From: an uncultured Bacteroidales bacterium
GTDB lineage: Bacteria; Bacteroidota; Bacteroidia; Bacteroidales; Paludibacteraceae
DNA: 59,397 nucleotides
Direction: 5' to 3'
Assembly (NCBI GenBank): GCA_902765485.1
Contig: CACWZZ010000020.1
Span: forward strand, 1 to 59,397
Shown here: positions 1,485 to 59,146 of the stretch, one piece after another
Layout: every line of letters begins with the position of its first letter
Position numbering within the stretch: position 1 is the stretch's first letter
The notes under the pieces: generated by a model
Told to the model about the DNA's origin: nothing
Seen by the model: only the letters and a program-made list of their open reading frames with translations
Database searches by the model: none
Translations under genes and position numbers: made by a program

Positions 1485-4400
1485 TTAACGCACTTCAGCG
1501 CCTAAGATGTTGAATACCTTGCCATCGGGATGGATGAGATAGATATGGTCGTTGATAAGCACCTTGCGCACCTTGGTACTTGGTACTTGGTCACTTGGTA
1601 CTTTGTCACTTGGTACTTGGTCACTTGGTACTTCCTCAATGCCCTCCGTGGCATTGAGTTGTATCACATATGGTTCCCACGGGGTACCGATATGGTTGTC
1701 GGAGACGAAGGTGAGGGTCTTGTCTATGACTCTCTCTTCACCATTGATGACGGTACGGAGCTCCATCGCCTGGCCTGCGCCGTCGCCGGCAATGACGAGG
1801 TAATAGAGGCTGTCGGTATGCGCACGTACCGCTCCGCGGCACTCACCGCCGATGTACGCCGCTATCTCGCATGTATCCACTACCGCCTCGCCGTCCATCA
1901 GACGGATCGTCATCGTCATGTTGCTCGGATAGGCACTGTACGCCCTTTGTACTTTGTACTTGGTACTTTGTCCCTTGGTACTTGCCATCAACTTCCGCTG
2001 CATATGGCTGACGGAGGAGGAGAGGGTCGGATAGACGAAGGACTTAGCCGTGCTGTCGGTGCTGTAATAGAGGTAGCCGTGGCCCGGTTCGAGCGCGGTG
2101 AGCGTGCCTTCCCAGCCGTAGAGGTCATAGACGGAAACGCCTGTCTGCGACTTGATGATGTCGCCCCACTTGGGCTGCACGCCCGCAAGGGCTTCGTCCA
2201 CCGTCATGGTTGACAGCGGCGTATAAGGCAACCAGTTCCAACCCTGCTCTATTCGTACTTCCATCGAGTCGGAAGGCAGCCGCTTGCCGCTAACGGAGAG
2301 CTGCGGGTCGAGGGTGGCGTTCGCCGTCTTGGTCGTCCGCAGGATACGCAGTTTGTACATCCTGTTCACCGCAAGCTTCAGCGGACCGTTGAAGATCGAG
2401 CCGGAGCTCTGGCTGAAGGTCTCCTGATCCTTGACAAGAACGTTCCAGCCCTTGTATTGGGGCGTGAAGACGAGGTCGCAGTACACCGACGGCGGCTCTA
2501 CGCCGAAGGCGATCCAGTTCCAGTTCTCGTGTACCGGAATGAGCTGCTCCACGCGGTCGGACTTGGTCCAGATAGCCGGTGTGTTGAAATTACCGATCAT
2601 CGTGTCCTGACGGAAAATCACTTGGTCACTTGGTACTTGGTAACTTGGTACTTGGTCACTTGGTACTTGTATATTCGCATCGGTATAGGCGATGCCTTTG
2701 GAGGCATCCCAGATACGGAAGGAGACGGGTTGGTTCTGGTCGGCGTCGGGAGTGTCGGAGCCGTAGATGATCAGGGTCTCGTACGCCGCGCCGCGTATCT
2801 TCTTCGGTGCAGCCACGCCGCGGCACTCGCCGCCGATGAAGGCAGCCACCATGCTCTCGGGGTTCTCCATCAGGATACCGCTGAGGTAAACCTGTCCGAT
2901 GATGGTCATGGAGTGGTCGTACTTGGTCGGGTCAACGGTCCAGTTAGGCGTCTCGCCGCGCACTTTCATGACGATACGGAGCGGTTCGAGGATGCCCTTG
3001 TTGCCCTGCACGCCTATCGTCGCTTCGTAGTTGCCTACCGGTACGAGCGGATTGACCGCAAAGCGCAACACTTTGGTCTTGAGCGGCTGGACATCGCTGA
3101 CGGCTGAAGGCTGATAGCTGACGGCTTCGTCGTTTACCAGACTCAGCCACGTCGGCATGTTCTCCACCGTGTAGTACTCGGTCTGACCGGACTTGTTCTC
3201 GATGGTCACATCGAAGGTGTAGTCCTCGCCGTACTGCTTGGTGATATTGACGGAGTCTTTACCCCAGAGGAGTGTGTTCTGCTGCACGTAGGCTGTCCAT
3301 TTGATCGGCTCGGAGGTGTTGCCGTTGAGGTCGTGTACATCCGTCAGGGTGATGTTGAGCGTCGTGCCCTCCAGGTCGCGCGCGGTGACTTCCGTTTCAG
3401 CGAGATTGATGACCACCTTGCGCTCGGACGCTACCGGCATTGCCGTGAGAACGGTCTCGGAGGGTGCGCGCTTGAGCGGCGGGGTGTTGGCTACATACGT
3501 ATGACGAGTGGACTGCATATCGCCCGCATTGCCGTAGATGGAGACGGGTGCCATGTTCTGCAGCGTGAAGCCCTTGGTGTCCACGCCGTTGATGGTGCTG
3601 TCTTTCTCAAACGGATAGTACCCCACTAAGCCCTGCGAATAGACCTTGGCGGTGTCGATGGTGTTGTACATATTGCTCAAAAGCCTGTCTTCGGAGAGCG
3701 TAGCTTTCCATATACGCACCTCATCGATGAAGGCATACTCCGCGTTCTTGGCGAAGACGAGTGCCGAGCCGCTCAGGTTCGGTACATCCGCCTCGGCGAT
3801 GACGGCAGTGCGTGCCCCGTCGAGGTAGAACGAAGCCGCCTGTCCGCGTACCACGTTGAGCGCGAAGTGGTGCCAGCCATAGACGATCTCCGGGAAATCA
3901 GTATGGGAGGCTACTGTCCGTGACTTCAAGCCGTAGTCCAACACGAGGTTCTGCGCCGTGTCGTAGCGCAGGCAGAGCTTCTCGGACTGCGCCTGCAGGT
4001 CGCCTGCCACGGAAGGCACGGCGGTCTCGAAGACGGTATCTGTTCCTATCGTCGGATAATACCATAGCTCGATGGCATAGCTGTCGTTGAAGCCGGTGGT
4101 GATGTGCGAGATGTCCGCCTGCATGCCGGCGGTGCTGTCCATACGGGCGGAGAGGTTTTTGCTGAGGATGTCCCATGCGTCTTTGCCGGTGAAGTTATGC
4201 GTGCGGCGTGTGTCTGCCGCCACGAAGCCGTGACCCTCGTTCATGTGCCAGTAGTTGGTCAGACCGTAGGTGTAGGTGTCTTTGGACACATACTTGTCGG
4301 TTTTCGCTTCCTTCAGGTCGCGGAAGATATTGTAGATCGCGAGGTCGTGGATGTTCGCGTCGATAGGACCGAGGTACAGGTAGTTGTCGTCGCGGTAGTC

Positions 4401-11280: not shown

Positions 11281-11350
11281 AAATGTTGTTTGTTTTTTAT
11301 TTGTTAATATTTGTTTCTTTTCTTAATCAGAGTACATTTTTCTGCCTTTT

Positions 11351-12812: not shown

Positions 12813-12839
12813 TCCAATATGTCAAAGATCGTATTTGGG

Positions 12840-16770: not shown

Positions 16771-16777
16771 AAATAAC

Positions 16778-16816
16778 TTTCAACTTCTTTCAACTTTCAA
16801 CTTTCAACTTTCAACT
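16778..16816. repeat. Family D repeat (TTTCAAC), intergenic
   Basis: Five tandem copies of the 7-mer TTTCAAC, one interrupted, filling the gap between the SDR stop and the helicase start. Confidence 0.9.
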
Positions 16817-18369
16817 TACTTCTCCCAGCCGTCGAAGATCTCAGGACCGTAGATGTTGTTCTCCGAGGGGTCATGCAGCGGTGCCCATAGTTGCGCAAAG
16901 AAGGGGTTTTCTTTTGCCACTTCGTCCCAATGCCAGGGGATAGCTGATGGCTCTCCCTCATATGGGAACGGCATGTCGTACGGAGACCAGTGTCCGCCGA
17001 GGAGGACCAGACGGCGCGAGGCATGGAATGAACGTCCGTGCGCATCTTCCCAGGTATCGTTGCCGAGATACTTACCGCCGCGGAAGGCTGCCGCTTTCTG
17101 CAGCTCCGCGTCGGTGAGGGTGTCCACATCCTTGGACTCGTCGTAGCCGTGATCGAGCAGTACGGGCGTCGTAGAAGGGTGCGAGAGGTCAAAATGCGCC
17201 CAGTCGGGTATTGCGCGATAGGCTTCGAGCGAGCCGTAATAAGCCGATACACGCTGGAGGGCACGCTCTTTGTCCTTGGTACTTTGTCCCTTGGTACTTT
17301 GTCCCTTGGTACTTTGCTTGATCCACCATTGGGTGCCGTGCTCTTTGCTGTTTGCCATAAACCACATGGCGGCTTTGACGCAATGAGGGAAGAGTTTGGC
17401 AATATGGGTCTTGGCGGCGAACTTGATTCCCGCCGGTAGCGAAGGTGCTTTTGCCATCTGCGCGAAATACTCCTTGACGGGCACGTTCGCGCGGAAGTGA
17501 AGATAAGATTCCAGCACGTCGCCGTCAATATACCACATACCGTGGAAATTGCGGGTGGTAAACCAATTGGCGTTGAAGATCTTCTCCGGCGCCGGACATC
17601 CGATGGCGTCGAGGAGCAGCACTTCGAACTCATAGTTCGAGAGCCGGTATTGGTCACCGGAGCCGATGTTATAATAACGGTTCCAGAACTCTGTCGGCAC
17701 TTCGGGCCGGCAGACGCGCTCCAGCAGCCGTCCGCTATCCTCGACAGTAGCCCATTCGAGCACGCCGCGGATCGGAACATGGAACATAATCGGGTCGTAG
17801 TTCTTCAGGATCGCCGGATAGAGAATACCGGACTGACGCAGAGAGACCCAGGTCTTGATGCCCGAATCGGTAATGATCCGTTCCGCCATCGCCTTGGTGA
17901 CACCATAATGGTCATAGGCAGAGACGCAGATCGGGTCTCCTGCCCTGCCCCAATGAAGAGGTTCACGGCGGTCTCCCATCTGCGCTACCGAACCGATATA
18001 AACCACTTTGGGTTGCTTGTCCTCGGGTTGAGCCAGTACAGCCTTGGTAATATTCTGCGCCGCAGTTATATTCGTGCGGAAAGTTGCTTTAGGTCGGTAG
18101 TCCGCTTGGGGCGAGACCATGCCGCCGACATGAAGGATTATATCTGCGCCCGTGACACCGCGAAGGACATCGTCATAGTTCGTGAGATCGCCCCAGACGA
18201 TGGACAGTTGGGGGTTGCAAGAGGAGAGAGGCGCGAGCAGTTCTTTATTTTTCTTGCTGGGTCGGGCAAGGATACGGAGGTCGTAACGGTCCGGGTAACG
18301 GAGTATCTCGGTCATTCCGGCGAAACCCATCGTGCCGGTGGCTCCGGTGAGAAAAACGGTAGTCTTCAT
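16816..18369 (-). CDS. NAD(P)-dependent epimerase/dehydratase (extended SDR)
   Basis: 517 aa. The Rossmann motif TGATGTMG is at 8-15, and the catalytic tyrosine and lysine are in YDHYGVTKAM near 168-177. The C-terminal 200 residues are longer than a standard epimerase and contain several tryptophan-rich motifs. Within this part lies KQSTKGQSTKGQSTKDKE (near 352-369), encoded by three units of the family A repeat (17270-17316). The substrate is unknown; homologues act on nucleotide sugars or steroid-like alcohols. It sits between the antiporter and helicase genes in one minus operon. Confidence 0.8.
   Translation of the reverse strand: MKTTVFLTGATGTMGFAGMTEILRYPDRYDLRILARPSKKNKELLAPLSSCNPQLSIVWGDLTNYDDVLRGVTGADIILHVGGMVSPQADYRPKATFRTNITAAQNITKAVLAQPEDKQPKVVYIGSVAQMGDRREPLHWGRAGDPICVSAYDHYGVTKAMAERIITDSGIKTWVSLRQSGILYPAILKNYDPIMFHVPIRGVLEWATVEDSGRLLERVCRPEVPTEFWNRYYNIGSGDQYRLSNYEFEVLLLDAIGCPAPEKIFNANWFTTRNFHGMWYIDGDVLESYLHFRANVPVKEYFAQMAKAPSLPAGIKFAAKTHIAKLFPHCVKAAMWFMANSKEHGTQWWIKQSTKGQSTKGQSTKDKERALQRVSAYYGSLEAYRAIPDWAHFDLSHPSTTPVLLDHGYDESKDVDTLTDAELQKAAAFRGGKYLGNDTWEDAHGRSFHASRRLVLLGGHWSPYDMPFPYEGEPSAIPWHWDEVAKENPFFAQLWAPLHDPSENNIYGPEIFDGWEK
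17270..17316 (-). repeat. Family A repeat inside the SDR gene
   Basis: Three units of CTTGGTACTTTGTCC, read as GQSTK. This frame differs from the DQVPS frame used in the giant protein and TsaB. Confidence 0.9.
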
Positions 18370-20561: not shown

Positions 20562-21623
20562 ATGTTTTGCAAAGATATACAGAGCGCATTATCGCCAATT
20601 TTGAGTCATTACGATCCGGATCAGGTCGTATGGATCGTGGACGAGCACGTGCGTAGTTTTTCGTTGTTTTCTCGTGGTTGTTCCGTGGTTGTTTCGTGGT
20701 TTGAATCTATTTCAGAGGACGACAAATCGCTCCAAACGGTAGAGCGGATTTGGGATTTGTTGCTGGAGAAAGGCATTACACGGCGCGGTCTGCTGGTCGC
20801 CGTCGGAGGCGGTGTATTGACCGACGTAGCGGGTTTTGCCGCAGCTACCTACAGACGCGGGATCGACTGGGTGGCGGTTCCGACTACTTTGCTGGCGATG
20901 GTGGACGCAAGCACGGGAGGCAAGACCGGAATCAATTACAAGGGAATGAAGAATATGATCGGTGCGTTCTATCCGCCGGTGGAGACCATTATATGGTCCG
21001 GATGGCTGGAGACCCTACCGGCGAAGGAGCTATTAAGCGGATTCGGGGAGATCGTGAAGATGGGACTGATAGAGCCTTCAGCTGTCAGCCATCAGCCTTC
21101 GGACCGGCTCTGGGAGGCGTTGATGCGTTATGATTTGGAGAAGATGGATATAGAGGAGTTGGAACCGATCATTGAGGCTTGCGTGGCGGCGAAGGAGCGG
21201 ATAGTAGCAGCAGACCCGAAAGAGGAAGGACTGCGGAAGGTTTTGAATTTCGGTCACACGTTCGGGCACGCGATAGAAGCCGTCAGCCATCAGCCATCAG
21301 CCGTCAGCCATCAGCCGTCAGCTCACGGCTATGCCGTGTTATACGGAATGGTCGCAGAGACGTACCTGAGTGTGGTGAAGTTGGGTTGCGACAAAGGGGT
21401 ATTGCAGCAGCTGACGCAGATGGTCATTCATTATTACGGCAAGCCGGAGTGCAAGTGCTCCGACCGAGGCAAGTTGATTGAATTGATGAAGCAGGACAAA
21501 AAGAACGAGCATGCAGGAGAGATCAACTGCACACTCATTCGTGGTATAGGTGAACCGGTGATAAACCAGGTGATCACAGAGGCGGAAGCCGAGGAGGCTT
21601 GGGAGTACCTGTTCAGTCTTTAG
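20562..21623 (+). CDS. aroB: 3-dehydroquinate synthase
   Basis: 353 aa cytoplasmic enzyme converting DAHP to 3-dehydroquinate, the second step of the shikimate pathway, with NAD and a divalent metal. The NAD site GGGVLTDVAGF lies near 85-95. Metal ligands are Glu in SGFGEIVKMG and the two histidines in GHTFGHA and AHGYAV. Between those histidines the native loop is replaced by VSHQPSAVSHQPSA, encoded by family B repeats. A second copy (PSAVSHQPSD) follows the glutamate region. Residues 33-47 (SLFSRGCSVVVSWFE) come from an 11-bp tandem array. The active-site residues remain intact, so the enzyme is probably functional. Confidence 0.93.
   Translation: MFCKDIQSALSPILSHYDPDQVVWIVDEHVRSFSLFSRGCSVVVSWFESISEDDKSLQTVERIWDLLLEKGITRRGLLVAVGGGVLTDVAGFAAATYRRGIDWVAVPTTLLAMVDASTGGKTGINYKGMKNMIGAFYPPVETIIWSGWLETLPAKELLSGFGEIVKMGLIEPSAVSHQPSDRLWEALMRYDLEKMDIEELEPIIEACVAAKERIVAADPKEEGLRKVLNFGHTFGHAIEAVSHQPSAVSHQPSAHGYAVLYGMVAETYLSVVKLGCDKGVLQQLTQMVIHYYGKPECKCSDRGKLIELMKQDKKNEHAGEINCTLIRGIGEPVINQVITEAEAEEAWEYLFSL
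20661..20704 (+). repeat. 11-bp tandem repeat (TCGTGGTTGTT) in aroB
   Basis: Four units near TCGTGGTTGTT, coding for SLFSRGCSVVVSWF. The same unit occurs outside genes at 58325-58346. Confidence 0.8.
21075..21101 (+). repeat. Family B repeat in aroB, copy 1
   Basis: TTCAGCTGTCAGCCATCAGC tract read as PSAVSHQPS. Confidence 0.9.
21279..21323 (+). repeat. Family B repeat in aroB, copy 2
   Basis: Six 7-bp units of CAGCCAT/CAGCCGT type read as AVSHQPSAVSHQPSA between the two metal-binding histidines. Confidence 0.95.
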
Positions 21624-22545: not shown

Positions 22546-22930
22546 TCACATAAATTGCCTGTATTCCATTGTATAACAATAGGTGAGGCACGTTAAGTTT
22601 TCTATTATATGTTAATGCTTGGTCAAGCGTTTTTTGGGTAAGGGGCACCGTCTCTGCCTTACATTCGATGAGCATGAGAGGCACAACCCCACCCTTGCCC
22701 TCCCCACAAGGGAGGGAAGTCTTAGCATAGACGACTGCGTCACACCTTTTCTTTGTTTCTCCGACAGAGATCGCTTGCTCTACCGCGATGAGCGAAGCGG
22801 GATAGTCCAGTTGCTCCACCAGATGGTGAAGCAACTGTTGCCTGACCCACTCTTCGGGCGTTAGTCGCACCCAACGGTGACGCCATTCGCAGAAGATCTG
22901 CTCCTTATTTTGGTTTATGCGGGTGCGCAT
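22484..22930 (-). CDS. HsdR N-terminal-domain protein, shortened
   Basis: 148 aa. It belongs to the small Bacteroidota proteins carrying a type I restriction HsdR N-terminal fold (LTPEEWVRQ motif near 23-31, catalytic-like LIECKA near 96-101), of unknown function and not part of a full type I system here. The loop before the IECK strand contains SLPCGEGKGGVV from a family C element (22685-22721). The C-terminus lacks the usual ending and reads into the first 62 bases of phoH. Homologous residues LVNYPSVL lie upstream of the ATG in frame, but a TAG from a CTAG-rich repeat cuts them off. It may be decaying. Confidence 0.7.
   Translation of the reverse strand: MRTRINQNKEQIFCEWRHRWVRLTPEEWVRQQLLHHLVEQLDYPASLIAVEQAISVGETKKRCDAVVYAKTSLPCGEGKGGVVPLMLIECKAETVPLTQKTLDQALTYNRKLNVPHLLLYNGIQAIYVNGNDHQSSGCPRYADLLRGQ
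22685..22721 (-). repeat. Family C element in the hsdR_N gene
   Basis: ACCCTTGCCCTCCCCACAAG followed by GGAGGGAAG. A near-palindrome read as SLPCGEGKGGV. Confidence 0.9.
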
Positions 22931-28195: not shown

Positions 28196-28199
28196 GGGA

Positions 28200-28232
28200 A
28201 ATTAAAAATTAAAAATTATGAATTAAAAATTA
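28200..28232. repeat. AATTAAAA tract
   Basis: AATTAAAAATTAAAAATTAT between lpxD and lpxC. Similar tracts occur at 30580-30600 and 44783-44814. Confidence 0.6.
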
Positions 28233-32258: not shown

Positions 32259-33332
32259 TTGCGAGTACTCTACCTCACACCGTGGTATCCGTCTGAGCAA
32301 GACGCGATGAGTGGTCTCTTCGTGCAGAAGCACGCGGAGTCTGTTCGTGCGCAGGGTTGCGAAGTGTGGGTGATTCATTCAGAGAGTTGGCGCGAACTGC
32401 TCTTGGCATGGCGAGACTTGCGGCGCGAAGGATGGATGCCGGATGTGGTGCAACTGAATGTCATTCAGAAGCAAGGTGTTCTCGCATTGTGGCTGAAACG
32501 GCGATATGGGATTCCGTATGTGATCGTAGAGCACTGGAGCGGGTACCTGCCGGAGAACGGGATGTTCGGGCGACTGAACATTCTCAAAAAGAAACTCTAC
32601 AAACGCATTGCCGCAGAGGCTTCCGCGATCCTGCCCGTAAGCGACCGGTTAGCCGAAGCGATGCAAGAATGCGGCATAGAAAACCACAAGTGGCTGAGGA
32701 TCAACAATGTAGTGGATGACTTCTTTTTCGATAAATCGACATATCGAAATATTGATATATCGAACCGTCCCAAAAGGTTTCTCCATGTAAGCTGTTTTGA
32801 CGAGCGCGCGAAGAACGTATCGGGTCTGCTACGGGCGGCAAAGATGCTGAGCGAAAAAAGGCAGGACTGGCAGCTGGTAATGGTCGGAACCGGTATTGAT
32901 TATGAGGATATGCGCGCGTACGAGCGGGATTTGGATATCCCTGAAGGTCTGATCCGCTGGACGGGTGAGTTGACGCCGCGCGAAGTGGCGGACGAGATGC
33001 ACCGCGCGGATGTGTTTGTGCTCTCCAGCCGGTACGAGACGTACGGCGTAGTGCTGGCGGAAGCGGCAGTCGCAGGCATGCAGATTGTGAGTACGCCGGT
33101 GGGGATAGCCGAAGAAGTGGGTGCACTCATTGTGTCGCAAGAGATCGCGCAAAACAAAGCCGGTAAGTTTGCGGAGTTTCTGGAAGCGGCGGCGTGGAAG
33201 CCGTCAGAGATCAGCCCTCAGAAGTCAGCTATCAGTTGTCAGCCGTCAGAGGTCAGAAGTCAGTATTCGGCAGAAAGTATTGGAAAGAAACTCAAAGAGG
33301 TCTATGATAGCTGTTTGCATCGCGACATATAA
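32259..33332 (+). CDS. Glycosyltransferase family 4
   Basis: 357 aa, GT-B fold. Start at TTG 32259 (reads MRVLYLTPWYPSEQDAMSG), which gives the proper first beta strand; no ATG fits. The donor-binding region is HRADVFVLSSRYETYGVVLAEAAV near 247-270, with the EX7E glutamates, and it would retain the anomeric configuration. Residues 313-340 (PSEISPQKSAISCQPSEVRS) are a family B element. The linker SKSTYRNIDISNRP-like segment near 165-178 comes from an ATATCGA-rich tract. The last 29 bases overlap the start of the next gene. It probably acts in capsule, LPS or glycoprotein synthesis. Confidence 0.85.
   Translation: MRVLYLTPWYPSEQDAMSGLFVQKHAESVRAQGCEVWVIHSESWRELLLAWRDLRREGWMPDVVQLNVIQKQGVLALWLKRRYGIPYVIVEHWSGYLPENGMFGRLNILKKKLYKRIAAEASAILPVSDRLAEAMQECGIENHKWLRINNVVDDFFFDKSTYRNIDISNRPKRFLHVSCFDERAKNVSGLLRAAKMLSEKRQDWQLVMVGTGIDYEDMRAYERDLDIPEGLIRWTGELTPREVADEMHRADVFVLSSRYETYGVVLAEAAVAGMQIVSTPVGIAEEVGALIVSQEIAQNKAGKFAEFLEAAAWKPSEISPQKSAISCQPSEVRSQYSAESIGKKLKEVYDSCLHRDI
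33199..33272 (+). repeat. Family B repeat in the GT4 gene
   Basis: About ten units of a variable TCAGNNG/TCAGCCG 7-mer, read as PSEISPQKSAISCQPSE. It is the longest coding copy in the window. Confidence 0.88.
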
Positions 33333-35033: not shown

Positions 35034-37158
35034 AATTATGGAGCTATCTCACAGAGATATAACGTATTGTAAGAATGTCGGTGCGAAGCGTGCCGACATT
35101 CTTCGTAAAGAATTGAAGGTGAATACCGCACTGGACATGGTGCGGCAGTATCCGTATAAGTATATCGACCGAAGCCGGTTCTATCGGATTGCGGAGATAG
35201 AGGACGAGGACACGTATGTGCAGATCGTTGGCGAAGTGACGGAATGGCACACGATCGGCATCGGTCGGGCGCAACGGCTGAGCGCCACCTTCAACGACGG
35301 AACGCACCAATGCGAGTTGGTGTGGTTCAAGGGCGTGCAGTATGTCAAGTTACAGCGCGGGATCAAATATCTGCTGTTCGGCAAGCCGAGCCGATTCAAT
35401 CACACCTATAATTTCGTTCATCCGGAGTTGACGCCGTGGAGCAAAGTGACGCCGGAGATGACGCAGGGTCTGGAGCCGTATTACAATACGACGGAGACCA
35501 TGAAGCGGCATGGGCTGAACTCCAAAGCGATACGAAATATCATTGCGGAGCTGATGCCGGAGCTGAAGATGGGTGTGCCGGACACGATGGGTGCAGATAT
35601 CTTGCAGCGATACCGTCTGATGGGCTTGACCGATGCGCTGGTGAATGTGCATTTCCCCAAAGACACACCGACGATGCAGGCGGCGCGGGCAAGGCTGAAA
35701 TTCGAGGAATTATTCTATATCCAGATGCAGTTGCTAAGGCAGATGAAGCGCAGGGAGCAGAACCCGGGCTTCGCGATGCCGATGGTGGGCAGCCGTTTTC
35801 ACGCCTTGTATAAGTCGCTGCCTTTTGACCTGACGGGTGCGCAGAAACGAGTGATTCATGAGATCCACGACGACCTGAAATCCGGACGCCAGATGAACCG
35901 ACTGCTGCAAGGTGATGTGGGTAGCGGCAAGACCTTAGTGGCGCTGCTATGCTGTCTGCTGGCTGTTGACAACGGCTATCAGACTTGTATCATGGCGCCG
36001 ACGGAGATATTGGCGAACCAGCATTACGAGACCCTGAAGGCATTCTTGGCGCCATTAGGCGACGCAGTACATATCGCTCTGTTAACCGGTTCGACGACCG
36101 CCAAGCAACGGGTGCCGATCCATGAGGGGCTGCTGAATGGCACAATCCATATATTAATAGGTACGCACGCGCTCATAGAGGACACGGTGCAGTGGCAGAA
36201 CTTAGGGTTCGTCGTGATCGACGAGCAGCACCGTTTCGGCGTGGCGCAGCGGGCGAAACTATGGGGGAAATCAGCTGTCAGCCATCAGAATTCAGCCGTC
36301 AGTATTCCGCCGCATATCCTGGTCATGACGGCTACGCCTATTCCGCGCACCTTGGCGATGACCGTCTATGGCGATCTGCATGTGAGTATCATCGATGAGC
36401 TGCCGCCGGGACGCAAGCCGGTGCAGACCATCCATTATAATATCAATCGCCGGGCGCAGGTGTATGCCTTCTTGCGCAAACAGATCCAAGAAGGGAGGCA
36501 GGTCTATGTGGTTTATCCGCTGATCAAAGAGAATGAGAAACTGGACTTGCAGGACCTGCAGAACGGTTTTAATGAGTTATGCGAGGCGTTCCCGGAATAT
36601 AAGATTTCCATGGTGCACGGTCAGATGAAAGCGGCGGACAAGGACCTGCAGATGCAGCGGTTTGCGAGTGGAGAGACCCAGATTCTGGTAGCGACGACCG
36701 TCATTGAGGTGGGCGTGAACGTACCGAACGCGACGGTGATGATGATCCAGAACGCAGAGCGGTTCGGGCTGAGCCAGTTGCACCAGTTACGCGGACGTGT
36801 GGGTCGCGGCGGAGACCAGAGTTACTGCCTGCTGCTGACCGACTTGGAGATCAGCGGCGATACGCGCAAACGGATGGATATCATGGTGGCTACCAACGAC
36901 GGTTTCCGCATCGCGGAGGAGGACTTGCGTCTGCGCGGCGCGGGCGATATAGACGGCACCCAGCAGTCGGGTATTCCCTTTGATCTGCATATAGCCAACC
37001 TGTCCACAGACGGTCAGTTGCTGACGCTGGCACGACAGGCAGCGATGGATATTCTGGACAAAGATCCGATGCTGGAGGACGAGATGAACCGGATATACAA
37101 AAGAAGACTCGACACCTTGCGGATCGAGTCTCCTCAGAATTGGAGCGAAATAAGCTGA
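35029..37158 (+). CDS. recG: ATP-dependent DNA helicase RecG
   Basis: 709 aa (Met at 35029 or 35038). It remodels stalled forks and Holliday junctions. An N-terminal wedge/OB domain lies at about 1-200. Walker A is GDVGSGKT near 302-309, the DEQHRFG box near 401-407, and QLRGRVGRG near 588-596, followed by the TRG region. Between the DEQH box and motif III (TATPIPRT) sits SAVSHQNSAVSIPPH, a family B insertion (36269-36306) of about 12 residues. All helicase motifs are intact. Confidence 0.93.
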   Translation: MSIMELSHRDITYCKNVGAKRADILRKELKVNTALDMVRQYPYKYIDRSRFYRIAEIEDEDTYVQIVGEVTEWHTIGIGRAQRLSATFNDGTHQCELVWFKGVQYVKLQRGIKYLLFGKPSRFNHTYNFVHPELTPWSKVTPEMTQGLEPYYNTTETMKRHGLNSKAIRNIIAELMPELKMGVPDTMGADILQRYRLMGLTDALVNVHFPKDTPTMQAARARLKFEELFYIQMQLLRQMKRREQNPGFAMPMVGSRFHALYKSLPFDLTGAQKRVIHEIHDDLKSGRQMNRLLQGDVGSGKTLVALLCCLLAVDNGYQTCIMAPTEILANQHYETLKAFLAPLGDAVHIALLTGSTTAKQRVPIHEGLLNGTIHILIGTHALIEDTVQWQNLGFVVIDEQHRFGVAQRAKLWGKSAVSHQNSAVSIPPHILVMTATPIPRTLAMTVYGDLHVSIIDELPPGRKPVQTIHYNINRRAQVYAFLRKQIQEGRQVYVVYPLIKENEKLDLQDLQNGFNELCEAFPEYKISMVHGQMKAADKDLQMQRFASGETQILVATTVIEVGVNVPNATVMMIQNAERFGLSQLHQLRGRVGRGGDQSYCLLLTDLEISGDTRKRMDIMVATNDGFRIAEEDLRLRGAGDIDGTQQSGIPFDLHIANLSTDGQLLTLARQAAMDILDKDPMLEDEMNRIYKRRLDTLRIESPQNWSEIS
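36269..36306 (+). repeat. Family B repeat in recG
   Basis: TCAGCTGTCAGCCATCAGAA followed by TTCAGCCGTCAG, read as SAVSHQNSAVS. Confidence 0.92.
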
Positions 37159-42994: not shown

Positions 42995-44776
42995 TTAGAG
43001 ACCGAGGGATTTCTTGATCTCCGGAACACGGGCTTCGGCTTCGGCGGTGCAACGCTCGTAGTCAGCACCGGTGAAGGGTTTGCCGGATTTAACCGGAATC
43101 TCGAAATAGAACTTGATCTTCGGCTCGGTACCCGAGGGACGAACAGAAACCTTCAGACCGCCCTCGGTGAAGTACTGGAGTACATTGGAAGTCGCGTTCA
43201 ACGGCATTTCTATTTTCTCATTTTCCCATTTACCATTTACCAATTTCTTCTGTTCAAGGAGTTTGAAGTCTTTGATCTTAACCACTTTCTCGCCTGCAAT
43301 CTCCTGCGGCGGGTTCTCGCGATAGTTCTTCATCATAGCCTGGATCTCCTCTGCACCCGTCTTACCCGGACGAACGACGTTGATGGTCGTCTCGCGTTGG
43401 AAGCCGTAGTCCTCGTATATCTTGAGGAGGTAATCATAGAGGGTCATGCCGTTATCCTTGGCATACGCAGCGATCTCGCAGATGAGGCAGATAGCCGAAG
43501 GCGAACATTTATCGCGGACTGCGTCGTACGGCAGGAAGCCGAAGGACTCTTCGCCGCCACCGATATATTTGCGTTTGCCTTCCCACATACGGATACGGTT
43601 GGCAATCCATTTGAAGCCGGTGTACTCGTCGGTGAGGGTAACGCCCTGCGCGTCGGCAATCTTGCGGATGAGTTCGGAGGTAACGATGGTCTTAACGATA
43701 TACATATCGTCGCGGAACTTACCCAGACGCTTCATGTTGTTGATGATGTAGTAGTGGAACATGATGTTGGTCTGGTTTCCGTTGATGATGACCCACTCGC
43801 CTTTGTCGTTGCGGCAAACGATAGCGATACGGTCCGCGTCCGGGTCGGAAGCGATCACGAGGTCAGCGCCCAGCTTGGTACCCAGTTTCATACCGAGGGT
43901 CATTGCCTCAGCGTTCTCCGGGTTCGGGGAAACGACGGTCGGGAAATTACCATCAATGACCATCTGCTCGGGCACCACGTGGATGTTCTGGAATCCCCAT
44001 GAGCGGAGGCACATCGGCACGATCTGACGTCCGGCACCGTGCATCGGGGTATAAACGATGTTGAGGTCTTTCTGGCGCAGGATGGTGTCCTGGTCGATCA
44101 TAACGGACTTAACCGCCATCATGTAGTCGTAGTCCATCTCGCCTCCGATGATCTCAATGAGGTCTTTGTCCGCCTCCCATTTGACATCCGCGAGGGTTAC
44201 TTTGTTGACTTCGTCAATAATTCCTTGGTCATGCGGCTGGAGCACCTGCGAACCATCCTCCCAATAAGCCTTGTAGCCGTTGTACTCTTTGGGGTTGTGA
44301 GAAGCGGTGACGTTGACACCGCCTTGGCATTTGAGTTGACGGATAGCGAAGGAGACCTCCGGCGTCGGACGCAGGGACTCAAAGAGATAGACCTTGATTC
44401 CGTTAGCAGAGAAGATATTGGCTACGGTCTCCGCGAACATACGTCCGTTATTACGGCAGTCATGACCTACCACCACTGCTACACGACCGTTCTGGACATG
44501 CTCAAAGCCGCCTTGTTTCTGTACCTTGAGGAGGTAGTTAGCATAGCCCTGGGTAGCCATGGCTACGATGTACTTGTTCATTCGGTTGGTACCCGGTCCC
44601 ATGATACCGCGCAATCCGCCGGTACCAAATTCGAGGGTACGATAGAAAGCGTCGATGAGTTCGGTTTTGTCCTCCGCCTCCATCATAGCTTTCACTTGTG
44701 CGCGGGTCTCCGCGTCGAACGGTTCGCGGGTCCAAACCTCAGCGACCGACATCACTTGTTTCAATTCTTCGTTCAT
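42995..44776 (-). CDS. Phosphoglucomutase/phosphomannomutase (alpha-D-phosphohexomutase)
   Basis: 593 aa cytoplasmic enzyme interconverting hexose 1- and 6-phosphates. The active serine is in TASHNPKEYNGYK near 142-154, the metal loop is DPDADR near 313-318, and the sugar loop GGEESFG near 405-411. The C-terminal RPSGTEPKIKFYFE binds phosphate. The segment LVNGKWENEKIEMP (43210-43245) reads through a CATTTACC-type repeat tract. It is probably the last gene of the hflX-hpt-pgm operon, ending at the terminator 42926-42959. Confidence 0.92.
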   Translation of the reverse strand: MNEELKQVMSVAEVWTREPFDAETRAQVKAMMEAEDKTELIDAFYRTLEFGTGGLRGIMGPGTNRMNKYIVAMATQGYANYLLKVQKQGGFEHVQNGRVAVVVGHDCRNNGRMFAETVANIFSANGIKVYLFESLRPTPEVSFAIRQLKCQGGVNVTASHNPKEYNGYKAYWEDGSQVLQPHDQGIIDEVNKVTLADVKWEADKDLIEIIGGEMDYDYMMAVKSVMIDQDTILRQKDLNIVYTPMHGAGRQIVPMCLRSWGFQNIHVVPEQMVIDGNFPTVVSPNPENAEAMTLGMKLGTKLGADLVIASDPDADRIAIVCRNDKGEWVIINGNQTNIMFHYYIINNMKRLGKFRDDMYIVKTIVTSELIRKIADAQGVTLTDEYTGFKWIANRIRMWEGKRKYIGGGEESFGFLPYDAVRDKCSPSAICLICEIAAYAKDNGMTLYDYLLKIYEDYGFQRETTINVVRPGKTGAEEIQAMMKNYRENPPQEIAGEKVVKIKDFKLLEQKKLVNGKWENEKIEMPLNATSNVLQYFTEGGLKVSVRPSGTEPKIKFYFEIPVKSGKPFTGADYERCTAEAEARVPEIKKSLGL

Positions 44777-45394: not shown

Positions 45395-46744
45395 CTCCTC
45401 GTAGTTTTGGAAGAGGAAGTCGTTATAGGGATAGCGCTGCACATGGATCGCCTTGATGCGGTCATACATGAGCGCGCGCAGTGAGTCTATATTATCTTTG
45501 TTTTTCGCCGAAATGAAGATGCAGTCTTCACCCAAGCGCGCCATCCATGTCTTTTGGAGGTCAGCGAGCGAGAGGTTCTCACGTTTGACGGGCGTGAGGT
45601 CATCTTCTTCTTTCGGCGTATAGGTGAAATTATCTATCTTATTGAAGACCACAATACGGGGGATTGAAACCCCACCCGACCTCCCCACAAGGGAGGAGAT
45701 GTGTTTGCTGCCGGACTCCCTCCCTTGAGGGGAGGGTTGGGGAGAGGTTATGATTTCATTGAGGGTCTGCTCAACGACCTCGTACTGCTCCTCGAAATTC
45801 GGATGGGATATATCCACGACATGGATGAGCAGGTCTGCTTCGCGCACTTCGTCAAGCGTCGATTTGAAGGACTCAACGAGGTGGTGAGGCAGCTTGCGAA
45901 TAAAGCCGACTGTGTCGGAGAGAAGGAAAGGCAGGTTCTCGATCGTCACCTTGCGTACCGTAGTATCCAAGGTAGCAAAGAGTTTGTTCTCCGCAAAGAC
46001 ATCCGATTTGGAGAGGAGATTCATGAGGGTCGATTTGCCCACATTGGTGTACCCGACGAGCGCGACACGCACCATTTTACCCCGGTGCAGGCGCTGGGTC
46101 GCCATCTGTTTGTCGATGGTCTTGAGTTGCTCACGGAGGAGCGCAATCCGCTGTCCTATCACCCGTTTATCCGCCTCTATCTGGGTCTCACCCATACCAC
46201 GGTTGGTGCCTCCACCTCCGCGCTGGCGATCCAAGTGGGACCACATACGGGTCAGACGGGGCAACATATACTGAAGGTGCGCCATCTCGACCTGGGTCTT
46301 GGCATAAGAGGTCTGCGCACGCTGGAGGAAGATCTCCAGAATCAAAATCGTGCGGTCAATGACACGGACGGGGGAAGAAACCCCACCCGACCTCCCCTCA
46401 GGGGAGGGGACTTTTTTGTTTAGTTCTTTCTCCAAGTTACGTATCTGGCGAGGGGACAGTTCGTCGTCAAAAATGACGACATCTACCACCGGTTTTTCCT
46501 CACTCGGTTCCTCCTCGCGGGAAACGATAAACTGCCTGATCTCCTCCAGTTTGCCCTCTCCGACATAGGTAGAGGTGTTAGGTTGGTCGAGGCGTTGGGT
46601 AAAACGCTTCACCGGCACGATCCCATGCGTGTCAGCAAGAAATGCCAGCTCGTCCAAGTACTCTTTGGTACGATCCTCCGGTTGAGCGGGAGTAATCAAT
46701 CCCACCAAAACGGCATGCTCTATATATGGTTTAATTTCAATCAC
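45392..46744 (-). CDS. hflX: Ribosome-associated GTPase HflX
   Basis: 450 aa. A GTPase that binds the 50S subunit and rescues or splits stalled ribosomes. The HflX N-domain is at 1-200 and G1 is GYTNVGKST near 230-238. G3 is DTVGF near 278-282 and G4 NKID near 377-380. Three family C elements lie in frame. VPSPEGRSGGVSS (46377-46410) extends the N-domain. A back-to-back inverted pair, TSPQPSPQGRESG and SSLVGRSGGVS (45666-45750), sits just before the G4 strand and adds about 25 residues. Confidence 0.93.
   Translation of the reverse strand: MIEIKPYIEHAVLVGLITPAQPEDRTKEYLDELAFLADTHGIVPVKRFTQRLDQPNTSTYVGEGKLEEIRQFIVSREEEPSEEKPVVDVVIFDDELSPRQIRNLEKELNKKVPSPEGRSGGVSSPVRVIDRTILILEIFLQRAQTSYAKTQVEMAHLQYMLPRLTRMWSHLDRQRGGGGTNRGMGETQIEADKRVIGQRIALLREQLKTIDKQMATQRLHRGKMVRVALVGYTNVGKSTLMNLLSKSDVFAENKLFATLDTTVRKVTIENLPFLLSDTVGFIRKLPHHLVESFKSTLDEVREADLLIHVVDISHPNFEEQYEVVEQTLNEIITSPQPSPQGRESGSKHISSLVGRSGGVSIPRIVVFNKIDNFTYTPKEEDDLTPVKRENLSLADLQKTWMARLGEDCIFISAKNKDNIDSLRALMYDRIKAIHVQRYPYNDFLFQNYEE
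45666..45750 (-). repeat. Family C inverted pair in hflX
   Basis: One copy in each orientation (45666-45703 and 45712-45750), separated by about 8 bases and able to form a long G/C-rich stem in the mRNA. Both are open in frame. Confidence 0.92.
46377..46410 (-). repeat. Family C element in hflX N-domain
   Basis: ACCCCACCCGACCTCCCCTC followed by AGGGGAGGGG, read as VPSPEGRSGGVS. Confidence 0.92.
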
Positions 46745-47085: not shown

Positions 47086-47097
47086 AATTTTTAGTTT

Positions 47098-47127
47098 TCA
47101 GCCTTCAGCTATCAGCTGTCAGCTTGG
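47098..47127. repeat. Family B repeat in the rpsO leader
   Basis: TCAGCCTTCAGCTATCAGCT followed by GTCAGC. It lies antisense to the rpsO transcript, about 12 bases before the start codon. Confidence 0.85.
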
Positions 47128-47285: not shown

Positions 47286-47942
47286 TTAACTGCGTTTCTC
47301 TGCTCCGATTGTGGTGAAATCACCATGTCCGGGATAGACGCGTGTGTCGTCCGGCAGAGTAAACAGACGTCGGAGAGAATCGATCATTTGTCCCATGTCG
47401 CCGCCGGGCAAGTCGGTTCTGCCATACCCCATCCGAAATAGCGTGTCGCCGGAGAGCAGCACTTTCTCGTCCTGCCAATAGAGACAGATCGAACCGGGCG
47501 TATGTCCGGGAGTGTGGAGAATTGAGAGTTGAAAGTTGAAAGTTGAAAGTTGAGAGTTTAGTGGTTCTATGGGGAAGGGTTGGGGCGTAGTACGGATACC
47601 GAAGAGGTTATATTGCGTCTGCATGGCTTGCGCCATCGGTATATCCACTTCGTGCATCAGGACGGGAGTATGCCACTGCTCCGTAGCCCATGCGGCACCC
47701 CATAGGTGGTCCAGATGACCATGGGTGGCGAGGATTAAAACCTCTCCCCGACCCTCTCCACAAGAGAGGGAGTTTATGTAGCCCTTCAAAAGCTGACGCT
47801 CGTACTCATTAGAGCAGGCGGGGTCGATGAGTAGAATTGACGCCTCTCCCCGACCCTCCCCCGCAGGGAGGGAGGAAACGACATAGGTATTCGTTCCGAA
47901 AGAACCAAATTCAAAGGATTTTATCTCCAACATTCCTGACAT
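47286..47942 (-). CDS. Metallo-beta-lactamase-fold hydrolase (glyoxalase II-like)
   Basis: 218 aa. The zinc motif THGHLDH is near 74-80, further ligands are HTPGHTPGS near 145-153 and GDTLF near 168-172, and the final GHGD is near 203-206. It is a hydroxyacylglutathione-hydrolase-like thioesterase by family. Three unrelated-origin repeat peptides are in frame: SSLPAGEGRGEAS and NSLSCGEGRGEVL (family C) at beta-hairpins, and NSQLSTFNFQLSI (family D) before the HTPGH ligand. Together they form about a sixth of the protein. It overlaps the radical SAM gene end by 22 bases. Confidence 0.88.
   Translation of the reverse strand: MSGMLEIKSFEFGSFGTNTYVVSSLPAGEGRGEASILLIDPACSNEYERQLLKGYINSLSCGEGRGEVLILATHGHLDHLWGAAWATEQWHTPVLMHEVDIPMAQAMQTQYNLFGIRTTPQPFPIEPLNSQLSTFNFQLSILHTPGHTPGSICLYWQDEKVLLSGDTLFRMGYGRTDLPGGDMGQMIDSLRRLFTLPDDTRVYPGHGDFTTIGAEKRS
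47519..47563 (-). repeat. Family D repeat in the MBL gene
   Basis: Four to five GAAAGTT/GAGAGTT units (TTTCAAC on the coding strand), read as NSQLSTFNFQLS. Confidence 0.92.
47739..47774 (-). repeat. Family C element in the MBL gene, copy 1
   Basis: CCTCTCCCCGACCCTCTCCA followed by CAAGAGAGGG, read as NSLSCGEGRGEV. Confidence 0.9.
47841..47875 (-). repeat. Family C element in the MBL gene, copy 2
   Basis: CCTCTCCCCGACCCTCCCCC followed by GCAGGGAGGGAG, read as SSLPAGEGRGEA. Confidence 0.9.
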
Positions 47943-48904
47943 ATTTGAGGGGTTTCACGTAGTGCAGCCCGACGAAAAGCGAGTGCTTTCTCATTACTAA
48001 AGAGTTCGCGCAGGGGTGCGTTCATTATATTTCCATACGCGTACGCGTGCGCCTTGTCATAGCAGCAAGGCAGGACCTCACCCTCCGTAGTAATCACTAC
48101 TCCGCTCCAGACACGGAGACACCCGCGGTGCAGCGGACGGCGATGGTACGAGGAGGAGTTTGCAGTTGTAATATAGCGGCTGTAACGAGGATCGGAAGGC
48201 ATGAGCGGATGCCCGTGGGTGTAGTTATAGAGTTGCGCGGTTTTGAAGGTCAGTGTATCCGCTCCGAGCGATTTATATTGGCGCTTGAAATCTTGCCACT
48301 CCTGTTCGTTCGTACGGAGGCGGAGAACTTGCAGTTCGATAGTGATACGCGCACGCAGACGCCCTTTAGCTGCACGTAACATCCGCAATGCTTCTTTCGT
48401 CTTCGCGAGACTTCCACCGACACGATAGGCATTATAACTCTCCTCGGTGAGCCCGTCCATGGAAACGATAATACGATCCAGTCCTGCTCCGACCAACGCT
48501 TCTGCCATCGGCTCCGTCATAGCCTGGGCATTGGTAGAGACAATGGTATAGAGTCCTTCCGAATGAGCTTGCGAAATCATTTGCGGCAGATTCGGATTGA
48601 GCAGAGGTTCGCCCTGAAAATAGAACTGAACGGTATGAGCATACCTCTTGATCTCGTCCAGCGTCCTCTGCCACACCTCACTACTCATAAAAGGAGGTCT
48701 GACGGCTGAGTTCTGACGGCTGACTCCCCCCTGCCCTACCGGACATTCGGGACAACGGAGTTGGCAAACCGAAGCCGGTTCGACCGAAACAAACATCGGT
48801 CTATGTGCAATATGCACCGAGCCCAAAAGACTCAGTGCATAACTCGCATAGCAACGCATCGCATTGGCAACACGCGAGAAGATATATCGGTTAATGAATT
48901 GCAA
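47921..48904 (-). CDS. Radical SAM/SPASM-like enzyme
   Basis: 327 aa. The 4Fe-4S motif is CQLRCPECPVG near 48-57 (CxxxCxxC), followed by the SAM-binding GEP segment (FQGEPLLNP near 96-104). A C-terminal cysteine cluster (CCYD near 274, CQECW at the end) suggests an auxiliary SPASM/twitch cluster. A family B element encodes GVSRQNSAVRPP directly after the cluster motif. The substrate is unknown; such enzymes often modify peptides or cofactors. It overlaps the rpiB end by 14 bases. Confidence 0.87.
   Translation of the reverse strand: MQFINRYIFSRVANAMRCYASYALSLLGSVHIAHRPMFVSVEPASVCQLRCPECPVGQGGVSRQNSAVRPPFMSSEVWQRTLDEIKRYAHTVQFYFQGEPLLNPNLPQMISQAHSEGLYTIVSTNAQAMTEPMAEALVGAGLDRIIVSMDGLTEESYNAYRVGGSLAKTKEALRMLRAAKGRLRARITIELQVLRLRTNEQEWQDFKRQYKSLGADTLTFKTAQLYNYTHGHPLMPSDPRYSRYITTANSSSYHRRPLHRGCLRVWSGVVITTEGEVLPCCYDKAHAYAYGNIMNAPLRELFSNEKALAFRRAALRETPQICQECWR
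48698..48724 (-). repeat. Family B repeat in the radical SAM gene
   Basis: CTGACGGCTGAGTTCTGACG followed by GCTGAC, read as VSRQNSAVR. Confidence 0.88.
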
Positions 48905-55524: not shown

Positions 55525-55529
55525 TTTTC

Positions 55530-55560
55530 TTGCATATTTCAAAAAAAAGCAGTACCTTTG
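55530..55560 (+). promoter_or_regulatory. Promoter of tRNA-Pro
   Basis: -33 TTG 55530-55532, -7 TACCTTTG 55553-55560, spacer 20, directed at the tRNA. Confidence 0.8.
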
Positions 55561-55586
55561 CACCCGCTTTTGAAAATTAAAGCATT

Positions 55587-55660
55587 CGGGGAGTGGCGCA
55601 GCCCGGTAGCGCAACGGTCTGGGGGACCGGAGGTCGCGTGTTCGAATCACGTCTCCCCGA
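55587..55660 (+). tRNA. tRNA-Pro (anticodon GGG)
   Basis: 74 bases. Acceptor arm CGGGGAG/CTCCCCG with discriminator A. D-arm GCGCAGCCCGGTAGCGC. Anticodon loop CTGGGGG gives anticodon GGG, with an A-G mismatch at the top of the anticodon stem. T-arm CGTGTTCGAATCACG. CCA is not encoded. It has its own promoter and is followed by a terminator. Confidence 0.93.
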
Positions 55661-58390: not shown

Positions 58391-59146
58391 TTAAGATTTC
58401 AGTCCCTTGACATGGCTTTGCGCCGCAATGAACTCCTTCAGGTAATAAGGTTCGTAATAGGCTAATTGCTGATGGCTGATAGCTGATGGCTGTCTGCTCT
58501 CCGCCAGCGCACCCATATACTGCGCCTCCGGCACGATGCCTGGGACGAAATGCCAATTGGGGGACGTCAGTACGGACTGGCATTTAGCGGCTCCGTCACC
58601 GAAATAATAATAGGAAGCCCCTTCCCGACCCTCCCCTAAAAGGGAGGGAGTCAGAAGCGACTCTTCGCCCTCTACCACCACAGCCTGTGCCCTATTCACC
58701 TTGGTACTTGGCACTTGGTCACTTGGTACTTGGTCACTTGGTACTTTGTCACTTGGTACTTCCGTATAGACTTCCATCCGCCGCGCGTCGATCATAGGGA
58801 TGAGGATAGCTGACGGCTGAAGGCTGACAGCAGTTTTGGCAGCCTCGCAGAGTATGTCCAGCGTCGGAATAGGGATGAGCGGCACATCAAGTCCGTAGCA
58901 CAGTCCTTTGGCGGTCGAGGTACCGATACGCAGTCCGGTATAGCTGCCCGGTCCTTCGGAGAGGGATACTGCTTCTATAGCGAGACCTTGCTCCCGTGCG
59001 AACGCGAGCAGTTCCTCTATATAGCGAGGAAGCAACCGCGCATGGTTGCCACCCTCAAGGGATATACACTGCTTAACCGGCACACCATCTTTACAGATCG
59101 CTGCCGAACAAACAGAAGTACTTGTTTCTATACACAACACCGTCAT
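58391..59146 (-). CDS. tsaB: tRNA threonylcarbamoyladenosine biosynthesis protein TsaB
   Basis: 251 aa from Met at 59146 (MTVLCIETSTSVCSAAIC), chosen over the ATG at 59167 because that begins within a repeat. It is an ASKHA-fold partner of TsaD in t6A synthesis. Conserved SLSEGPGSYTGLRIG and KGLCYG lie near 61-82. Four repeat elements from three families are in frame: SLQPSA (B, 58808-58832), VPSDKVPSDQVPSDQVPS (A, 58700-58762), PSLLGEGREGAS (C, 58613-58653) and RQPSAISHQ (B, 58467-58494). They fall in loops and the C-terminal half. Confidence 0.92.
   Translation of the reverse strand: MTVLCIETSTSVCSAAICKDGVPVKQCISLEGGNHARLLPRYIEELLAFAREQGLAIEAVSLSEGPGSYTGLRIGTSTAKGLCYGLDVPLIPIPTLDILCEAAKTAVSLQPSAILIPMIDARRMEVYTEVPSDKVPSDQVPSDQVPSTKVNRAQAVVVEGEESLLTPSLLGEGREGASYYYFGDGAAKCQSVLTSPNWHFVPGIVPEAQYMGALAESRQPSAISHQQLAYYEPYYLKEFIAAQSHVKGLKS
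58467..58494 (-). repeat. Family B repeat in tsaB, copy 2
   Basis: GCTGATGGCTGATAGCTGAT followed by GGCTG, read as QPSAISHQ. Confidence 0.92.
58613..58653 (-). repeat. Family C element in tsaB
   Basis: CCTTCCCGACCCTCCCCTAA followed by AAGGGAGGGAG, read as PSLLGEGREGAS. Confidence 0.9.
58700..58762 (-). repeat. Family A repeat in tsaB
   Basis: Four 15-bp units, read as VPSDKVPSDQVPSDQVPS. Confidence 0.95.
58808..58832 (-). repeat. Family B repeat in tsaB, copy 1
   Basis: GCTGACGGCTGAAGGCTGAC, read as VSLQPSA. Confidence 0.85.

Follow-up and report, generated by a model that had tools for sequence, protein, structure and literature searches.

How do the housekeeping enzymes of a bacterium come to carry, within open reading frames, short DNA repeats that the same enzymes of a sister species exchange for other repeats or lack altogether? 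The question is raised by a 59,397-nt stretch of DNA (contig CACWZZ010000020.1 of assembly GCA_902765485.1, here called the window) from an uncultured gut bacterium of the Paludibacteraceae (Bacteroidales), in which repeats lie both between genes and in frame within about 13 genes, the reading frames being open across them. A preliminary description of the window, which had counted at least eleven such coding regions, proposed that several types of micro-repeat spread through the genome by an active or recent process and are retained where they fall in surface loops. Comparison with related genomes shows that the turnover of the arrays is fast and precise; tolerance explains where they lie (in loops, linkers and spacers), and what they contain is best explained if units are written repeatedly from a shared pool.

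In its source genome, G000 (41 contigs, 2.1 Mb, 83% complete), the window corresponds to contig C20. The closest sister found, G075, is syntenic and about 96% identical to the window (4.1% divergence over all aligned sites), and a second syntenic genome, G078, differs from it by 7.7% overall; some of the nearest comparison genomes are metagenome-derived. The four repeat families of the preliminary description all stand. Family A alternates CTTGGTA with CTTGGTCA (period 15, 7+8), family B is a lattice with a step of 7 in which a TCAG core is joined to a variable triplet (TCAGNNN), family C is a near-palindrome of about 36 bp, and family D is a CTTTCAA heptamer, found at 16787 (intergenic), at 47522 (in an MBL hydrolase gene) and at 59154, upstream of the likely TsaB ATG and therefore intergenic. 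Families A, B and D are tandem, only C being palindromic. The list was too short, as the window also holds 8-mers, 9-mers, 11-mers, and AATTNNN and CATTTAC heptamers. Units are identical throughout in arrays of CTTTCAA and of several 8- and 11-mers, and they vary in TCAGNNN and AATTNNN arrays. The genes concerned encode LamG3_a, SDR, AroB, HSDR_N, LpxD, SSB (where the repeat is degenerate), GT4, RecG, phosphoglucomutase, HflX, MBL and radical SAM proteins, and TsaB, a name kept from the earlier description for what Pfam places in the TsaD family. Both G075 and G078 have orthologous arrays and copies of family C in their syntenic contigs, which weighs against pure assembly error as the source of the repeats.

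Most small indels between sister genomes are associated with repeats

Over 38,062 bases the window and G075 are separated by 22 insertions or deletions (indels) of at least 5 bp, 17 of them repeat-associated, and against G078 (35,778 bases) the proportion is 15 of 20. These counts cover BLAST blocks of more than 800 bp, indels at block junctions being uncounted, and 4.5% of 75-bp stretches drawn at random from the window attain the array score used for repeat association. The process is thus recent on the scale of sister species, as had been suggested. Among the repeat-associated indels that distinguish G075, all ten genic ones are divisible by three and two of the seven intergenic ones are (Fisher p 0.003), which bears out the claim that coding copies keep the frame; for G078 the corresponding figures are 4/5 and 2/10. 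The G078 exception, a +5 in aroB, is compensated elsewhere, because the lifted G078 gene is open to its last codon. Several other lifted genes did not read through or were of odd length (TsaB, MBL and lpxD in G075; lpxD, recG, HflX and g487 in G078, in which TsaB was unaligned), and these we put down to the chosen end positions or to unaligned parts; in TsaB of G075 the additional base is located upstream of the likely ATG.

Arrays change in several ways. Unit number differs at shared arrays at 17303 (15 bp), 18371 (7 bp), 22943 (16 bp) and 45373 (16 bp). The family A array of the SDR gene (17268..17316, + strand) is 15 bp shorter in both G075 and G078, and that of TsaB (58700..58761, +) is 21 bp shorter in G075. 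Whole arrays also come and go. Among those that G075 has and the window lacks are AATTGAC units in HSDR_N, family C in a tRNA-synthetase gene and CATTTAC units in g487; conversely, the window has a GTTAAACT array at the end of a GNAT gene that G075 lacks. To speak of insertion, as the preliminary description did, is therefore right as far as it goes, but it is incomplete, for the sister often has another family in place of the window's.

The same enzyme loops hold different repeats in different species

G075 has a different family at eight places. Between the DEAD-helicase and SDR genes, where a family D array fills the spacer (16775..16817, +; the place at 16771), both G075 and G078 have a TTTGACA-type array. 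The AATTAAA heptamers of the lpxC-lpxD spacer (28199..28232, strand unassigned) are matched by an AATAATG-type array in G075 and an AATTAAA-type array in G078, and the family B array of the HflX/MBL spacer (47097..47124, +) by a CATTTGGT-type array in G075 and by ATTTACG in G078. Within genes, the family D array of the MBL hydrolase (47517..47558, - strand; the place at 47522) consists, by reading, of six 7-mers, and both G075 and G078 have six 8-mers there (ATTTGAAG/C), a net difference of 6 bp that keeps the frame. Two family B arrays of TsaB (58460..58492 and 58809..58839, both -) correspond in G075 to CTTTCAC-type sequence and TGAATTG heptamers, respectively. The two remaining places are in AroB.

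Outside its loops, the AroB of G075 is 93.3% identical to the window gene (991/1062). Two loops, one after KTGLI or KMGLI (loop 1) and one between GHALEE and HGYAV (loop 2), both hold family B in G000 (21073..21108 and 21278..21322, both +) and in G018. In G075 they hold, respectively, family C and a C-like, GC-rich sequence; G078 agrees with the window in loop 1, where it has family B, and differs in loop 2, where it has TCAATTM heptamers. Near the N terminus (loop 0) the window has an 11-mer array (20657..20701, +), which is of the same type in G075 and of a different 11-mer in G078. Thirty of 55 AroB-bearing genomes were compared, and in other species the loops have ACAATGG, AATGGTC, TTCACAA, ATTCAGN, GGTTACG, GACCAAC, CACCGTT or GAATTNN units, or are short. 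An automatic score, which overlooks family C and short arrays, finds a tandem array in 6, 6 and 11 of these 30 sequences at loops 0, 1 and 2 (50/1200 in controls), and the units of the 11 loop-2 heptamer arrays differ among sequences. Loop 0 of L035 (genome G003) and loop 2 of L049 (G004) have a longer in-frame repeat (CTACAGCATAGCGGTC-like, with a related TTGCAGCATAGCGGTC) that stands outside the four families.

RecG and TsaB behave similarly. In an alignment of 81 RecG rows (the window and 80 of 246 relatives), the loop that carries family B in the window (36271..36302, +; about aa 416-427) does so in four rows (the window, L061, L062 and L074), has other residues in 14 and none in 63, and a second loop has family A-like or CAATCAC-type inserts in L074, L097, L100, L111 and L115. 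L061 sits in G077, whose places match those of G075, so that the two are not independent. In a predicted structure of RecG (mean pLDDT, the model's per-residue confidence score, 77.5) the insert forms a coil between the helix at 405-413 and the strand at 429-434, with pLDDT below 50 at 419-423. Together with the genome-wide spread, the recent turnover and the kept frame, this largely supports the proposal of spread with selection for tolerant loops. The window protein is 99% identical to the RecG of a Paludibacteraceae metagenome-assembled genome (MAG) labelled roe deer duodenum, and the 80 relatives bear titles such as Paludibacteraceae or Bacteroidales, many of them from sheep, goat, cattle, yak or deer. 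At three TsaB loops there are likewise differing repeats or none (27 of 30 rows usable; L002, L004 and L005 were excluded for a wrong frame). The preliminary description would have been refuted by identical peptides at identical positions in distant relatives. AroB, RecG and TsaB show no such case, their corresponding loops holding different peptides or none.

Families are shared among loci and species, with species-specific dosage

G000 has 25 exact matches to CTTGGTNACTTGGT (family A), 303 to four consecutive TCAG cores (family B) and 36 to a 19-base family C core at no more than one mismatch, with no match to any of the controls (reversed for A and B), and several micro-repeat types are therefore spread genome-wide, as first described. 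Twelve family B arrays of at least three exact cores lie in the window, against 0.0 per shuffle in 20 mononucleotide shuffles of it; four are intergenic and eight genic, all eight being read in a stop-free sense, and the listed genes make up 87% of the window. The four-core pattern gives 0 to 156 matches in each of 36 other same-genus genomes (at least one in 30 of 37, G000 included), and occurs in 8/24 genomes of other families of the order and in 54/147 other genomes across the phylum, some with mixed triplets in contigs of several Mb, so that the unit design is neither confined to the genus nor an artefact of one MAG. The reversed control (GACTNNN) has matches in some of these genomes (93 in G007, 102 in G143), probably through a repeat family of their own. 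Stretches rich in TCAGNNN units in two genomes (G042:C7:76973-77284, about 310 bp, and G051:C6:22338-22467, about 130 bp) could be sources of units. Overall, families are common to several loci and species, and their dosage is species-specific.

The periods of the arrays have a genus signature. In the window, runs of at least 10 matches number 9, 8, 7 and 10 at lags 7, 11, 14 and 15, with a lesser excess at 21, 22 and 24; there are two each at 8 and 9, one each at 6 and 10, and none at 2-5, 12, 13 and 20. Runs per 100 kb at periods 7/11/15 amount to 11.8/6.7/11.8 in the window, 4.1/1.8/0.8 in 389 kb from 20 same-genus genomes and 0.4/0.0/0.0 in 238 kb sampled across 15 of the order's other families, and shuffled genus stretches gave 0 runs. 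Relative to the stretches of the other families, from which they are nearly missing, periods 7, 11, 14, 15 and 22 are over-represented in the genus; period 8 shows no clear difference in this sample (1.0 per 100 kb in the genus vs 0.8 in other families; 3.4 in the window). In seven of the 20 same-genus stretches none of periods 7, 8, 11 and 15 gives a run, and the window is thus repeat-rich even for its genus. A scan of five close genomes (270 kb) for 4-mers found four times at one fixed step gave 446, 142, 58, 42 and 88 hits at steps 7, 8, 11, 14 and 15, with none at 5, 10 and 13, eight at step 6, two at 9 and four at 12; the recurring cores are chiefly AATT and TCAG at step 7 and ATTT, TTAA and CTAG at step 8.

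In family B, spacers change more than cores

Five family B arrays with an orthologue in G075 differ from it at 7/119 core positions and 23/89 spacer positions (Fisher p 9e-5), against 25/1100 in the flanks, that is, 6%, 26% and 2%; compared with G078 the counts are 7/118, 19/89 (p 0.0012) and 66/1097. The spacer triplets come from a restricted pool: 103 spacers in 30 TCAG arrays from eight genomes are of 23 kinds, CCG and CCA being commonest and none beginning with G. G-initial spacers make up 2/168 in the G000 list, and subfamilies with G occur in other genomes. The order of triplets, for its part, is not shared above chance, as would be expected if units were drawn singly. Two pairs of family B loci have spacer triples in common, against a shuffle mean of 0.99, and 1218/5000 shuffles reach two pairs (56 loci, reduced from 97 typed windows on contigs C1-C9 of 303 genome-wide, three windows of one C6 array being omitted). 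On these grounds we dropped the idea that family B spreads chiefly by the copying of whole arrays.

Family C behaves differently and resembles REP elements

The preliminary description treated all families as products of one process, and here family C has to be set apart. The window copies are at 22684 (HSDR_N-like gene; 22684..22720, +), 29006 (lpxD; 29006..29042, +), 45659, 45711 and 46370 (HflX; 45659..45695 on +, 45711-45749 on - from the inverted-repeat list, and about 46370-46406 on +), 47738 and 47840 (MBL; 47738..47774, +, and 47840-47876) and 58616 (TsaB; 58616..58652, +). Seven of these eight are nearly unchanged in G075, the TsaB copy having diverged, and family C is thus mostly stable once placed, although G075 also has new copies; the HSDR_N copy is unchanged in G078 as well, where the last hflX copy is absent. 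As a multicopy palindrome of 20-40 bp with conserved arms, family C resembles repetitive extragenic palindromic (REP) sequences: arm pairing is kept, by eye, in 23 of the 24 exact G000 matches listed (16 CCC/GGG, 7 CTC/GAG, 1 mixed). No GTAG or CGTC end tag was seen by eye at the eight window copies. Family C is also in frame in genes; families A, B and D are tandem and not palindromic, so that a likeness to the Rickettsia-type palindromic elements holds at most for C. It occurs in 15/31 same-genus genomes, G000 included, and in 1/20 others. A genome of the same order and another family, G026, has nine family C matches and six matches to Y1 transposases, and is a possible place for a partner of family C.

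Candidate drivers do not track the repeats

A search for a REP-type (RAYT, Y1) transposase or a reverse transcriptase had been recommended, and neither is supported as the driver. Y1_Tnp has no match in G000, whose 83% completeness leaves the absence uncertain, and occurs in 5/16 same-genus genomes (four over the cut-off) without tracking the repeats. RVT_1 is found in 5/16 same-genus genomes, including one match in G000, and G003, G006 and G014 carry AroB or TsaB repeats without an RVT_1 match. A mutator state through loss of MutS, the one mismatch-repair protein looked at, was rejected, since MutS_I is present in 21/23 same-genus genomes including G000, the two others being 68% and 54% complete. 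Ku-type end joining was dropped, as Ku was found in 0/25 genomes and, among 14 control genomes, matched only in Bacillus subtilis. Nor did a known RNA family emerge among the repeats: at Rfam gathering scores, the sole match in the window is a tRNA at 55587-55660.

Other repeats and neighbouring genes of the window

A LamG-type gene on the - strand carries family A at 1572..1633 (+), with a 41-bp exact string in common with the TsaB array and 96% identity to it over 67 nt, a family A variant (CTTTGTA) at 1945..1983 (+), family A again at 2620..2669 (+), and family B in sense orientation at 3096..3126 (-). Family B is also found in the C-terminal part of the GT4 gene (33199..33263, +; nine cores with varied triplets), in the radical SAM gene (48694..48723, -; unchanged in G075) and, as a degenerate stretch that is more regular in G075, in the C-terminal part of SSB (31154..31193, +). 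The phosphoglucomutase gene has CATTTAC-type heptamers (43222..43242, +), with a similar array in G075 and no clear one in G078.

By Pfam, the genes of the window include a DEAD helicase, SDR, AroB, PhoH, a class I (E and Q) tRNA synthetase, LpxA, LpxC, LpxD, SSB, two glycosyltransferases, TonB, RecG, phosphoglucomutase, an HflX-like GTPase, an MBL hydrolase, a radical SAM enzyme and a peptidase M13. Two very long LamG-domain proteins (1442 and 1844 aa) occupy 1485-11280, the first holding the three family A arrays just described; within the fetched part of G075 contig C36, window positions 1085-14219 have no aligned counterpart. At 38401-41572, a restriction-modification cluster (N6/N4 methylase, DpnII-type endonuclease and Dam-type methylase) stands beside a group of 9-bp repeats (38401-38576). 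Nothing in either comparison genome aligns with the cluster: at this place G075 has about 7 kb with internally repetitive genes, and in G078 the flanks are about 80 bp apart. Highly similar upstream blocks (GCAGTACCTTTGCA) occur at 1262-1305, 14210-14336, 30692-30756, 34184-34253, 55503-55572 and 59187-59242, and resemble promoters of the Bacteroidota type.

Discussion

The model presented here, to which we give about even credence, treats the arrays as non-autonomous micro-satellites, with units mostly of 7, 8, 11 and 15 bp, which arise and turn over very fast in this genus through slippage and core-paced template switching and survive by selection for tolerant loops. Replication slippage combined with template switching in trans would write new arrays, with the 4-5 bp core providing the microhomology for re-priming at each step and the units being taken singly out of the pool of related units in the genome; arrays would then expand, contract or be overwritten, and selection would retain only those frame-preserving, stop-free arrays that fall in surface loops and linkers. 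What we infer is the slippage with switching in trans and the re-priming on the core. We favour it because of the pattern of cores and spacers, because divergence around switched sites is flat beyond 10 bp (15.2% at 1-10 bp, then 7.2, 8.3, 5.8 and 8.7% at 11-30, 31-60, 61-120 and 121-250 bp), and because no transposase, reverse transcriptase, Ku or loss of MutS tracks the repeats. It is tempting to extend the model to a general process of the Bacteroidota in which a 4-bp core primes and a free triplet is copied from a dispersed pool, rewriting the loops of essential enzymes and forming the main source of small indels between sisters with no dedicated mobile element; this wider form we put forward only tentatively, as a possibility on which we would not rely.

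Several observations weigh against the slippage and template-switching model. No intermediate of the proposed copying has been seen, and template switching is read from the pattern only. The five arrays used for cores and spacers were chosen by hand for intact cores in the window, so that core conservation is partly ascertained, although by our estimate this selection would lower core change at most by about half, which falls short of the fourfold difference observed; and in two of the ten single comparisons (33204 vs G075 and 48694 vs G078) cores had changed no less than spacers. Blocks in which unit order is kept, namely a 32-bp AATT string at two G075 loci and the 41-bp family A string common to LamG and TsaB, fit block copying instead. 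Switched status was read from two or three genomes only, and some switched sites may be either an old array overwritten or an empty site filled separately in each lineage. Finally, the 6-9% divergence at 11-250 bp around switched sites exceeds the 4.1% mean, and import of alleles from other lineages by recombination may therefore contribute. L074 offers a likely example in its RecG: the gene (recG, 3001-5160) is mosaic-looking, being about 81% identical to the window gene overall but nearly identical to L062 in the segment around the family B loop.

Allele import thus probably also occurs, and one could go on to propose that homologous recombination between lineages merely shuffles old loop alleles, with no need for a high rate of new insertion. 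The L074 segment and the raised divergence of the flanks would both be expected, yet that divergence does not climb toward the switched array beyond 10 bp, intergenic spacers switch as well, and the species-level bursts (the 303 TCAGNNN matches of G000 against 0 to 156 in the 36 other genomes of the genus searched) are hard to fit; as the whole explanation, shuffling seems unlikely. The bursts, and the many families at many loci of one genome, would fit a dedicated, still unknown mobile system (a transposase, an RNA-templated polymerase or a nuclease) that writes the arrays, and G000 does have its one RVT_1 match. Against such a system are the patchy occurrence of Y1_Tnp and RVT_1, two candidate families sought in incomplete genomes, the lack of a fixed array length, and the flanks of family A arrays, which by eye are unrelated except for the pair at 1572 and 58700; we think it quite unlikely.

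Plain slippage in place, by which each locus would amplify its own local seed, readily accounts for the changes of unit number at shared arrays. It leaves unexplained why the same families are found at unrelated loci and in several species and why spacers change more than cores, and the passage between six 7-mers and six 8-mers in MBL without loss of frame is hard to reach by single-unit steps; a mutator version has the widespread MutS_I against it. Slippage alone is accordingly, to us, very unlikely. The conservation of cores relative to spacers could also mean that cores are binding sites under selection and arrays regulatory platforms, as has been proposed for the heptamers of Geobacter and Beggiatoaceae (PMC2700814, PMC4679880). 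The switching of families at one site and the placement of arrays in housekeeping coding regions, in rotating codon phase, make this highly improbable here.

Heptamer arrays within and between genes are already known, and what appears to be new here is the fast switching of families in enzyme loops. In cyanobacteria, the degenerate heptanucleotide repeats known as STRR, for example those in the P6b loop of the tRNA-Leu intron, combine fixed and variable positions, and different classes are reported at the same loop. As they are usually defined, their dispersed degenerate heptamer architecture is matched here, but the match is one of architecture only, the cyanobacterial cases being an RNA gene and intergenic DNA, with other sequences. 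The heptanucleotide class of LSSR (Mrazek et al. 2007, as described in PMC4679880) likewise comprises tandem short units beyond chance; many families per genome, units of core and variable triplet and same-loop switching between sisters set our arrays apart by description only, and the two may overlap. TAACTGA heptamer repeats have been reported from Beggiatoaceae, Cyanobacteria and five Bacteroidetes (MacGregor 2015, PMC4679880), and they too form dispersed arrays, some stop-free in open reading frames, with two sets in Paludibacter propionicigenes. They are, however, a single unit family, lying mostly just upstream of starts in the main genome, with in-frame copies mostly at protein ends or in hypothetical proteins. 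Geobacter metallireducens has several classes of four to five tandem hepta- or octanucleotides, one of them (49 copies) both genic and intergenic (PMC2700814), but these are read as regulatory RNA or regulator sites, and the portion of the account consulted does not describe family switching at orthologous sites. Rickettsia palindromic elements and REPs within genes also lie in frame in genes that likely encode functional proteins, and different REPs occupy about the same recB site in two Xanthomonas species; these are palindromic (PMC3733652), whereas here only family C is. In the openly licensed literature that we searched, which excludes subscription papers, we found no description of these repeats in Paludibacteraceae, no account of rapid family switching in enzyme loops, and neither a lattice of core and variable triplet with unequal change nor dominance of arrays among small indels.

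If the model is right, such loops should not be taken as conserved or functional features, and AroB, RecG, TsaB and others would provide a natural series of loop insertions for studies of protein tolerance. Closely related genomes would make it possible to test where heptamer repeats come from, a question of long standing in cyanobacteria and elsewhere. For the genus itself, it would mean that a single repeat-writing process yields most of the small indels between sister species, and that many species have re-made the same enzyme loops independently.

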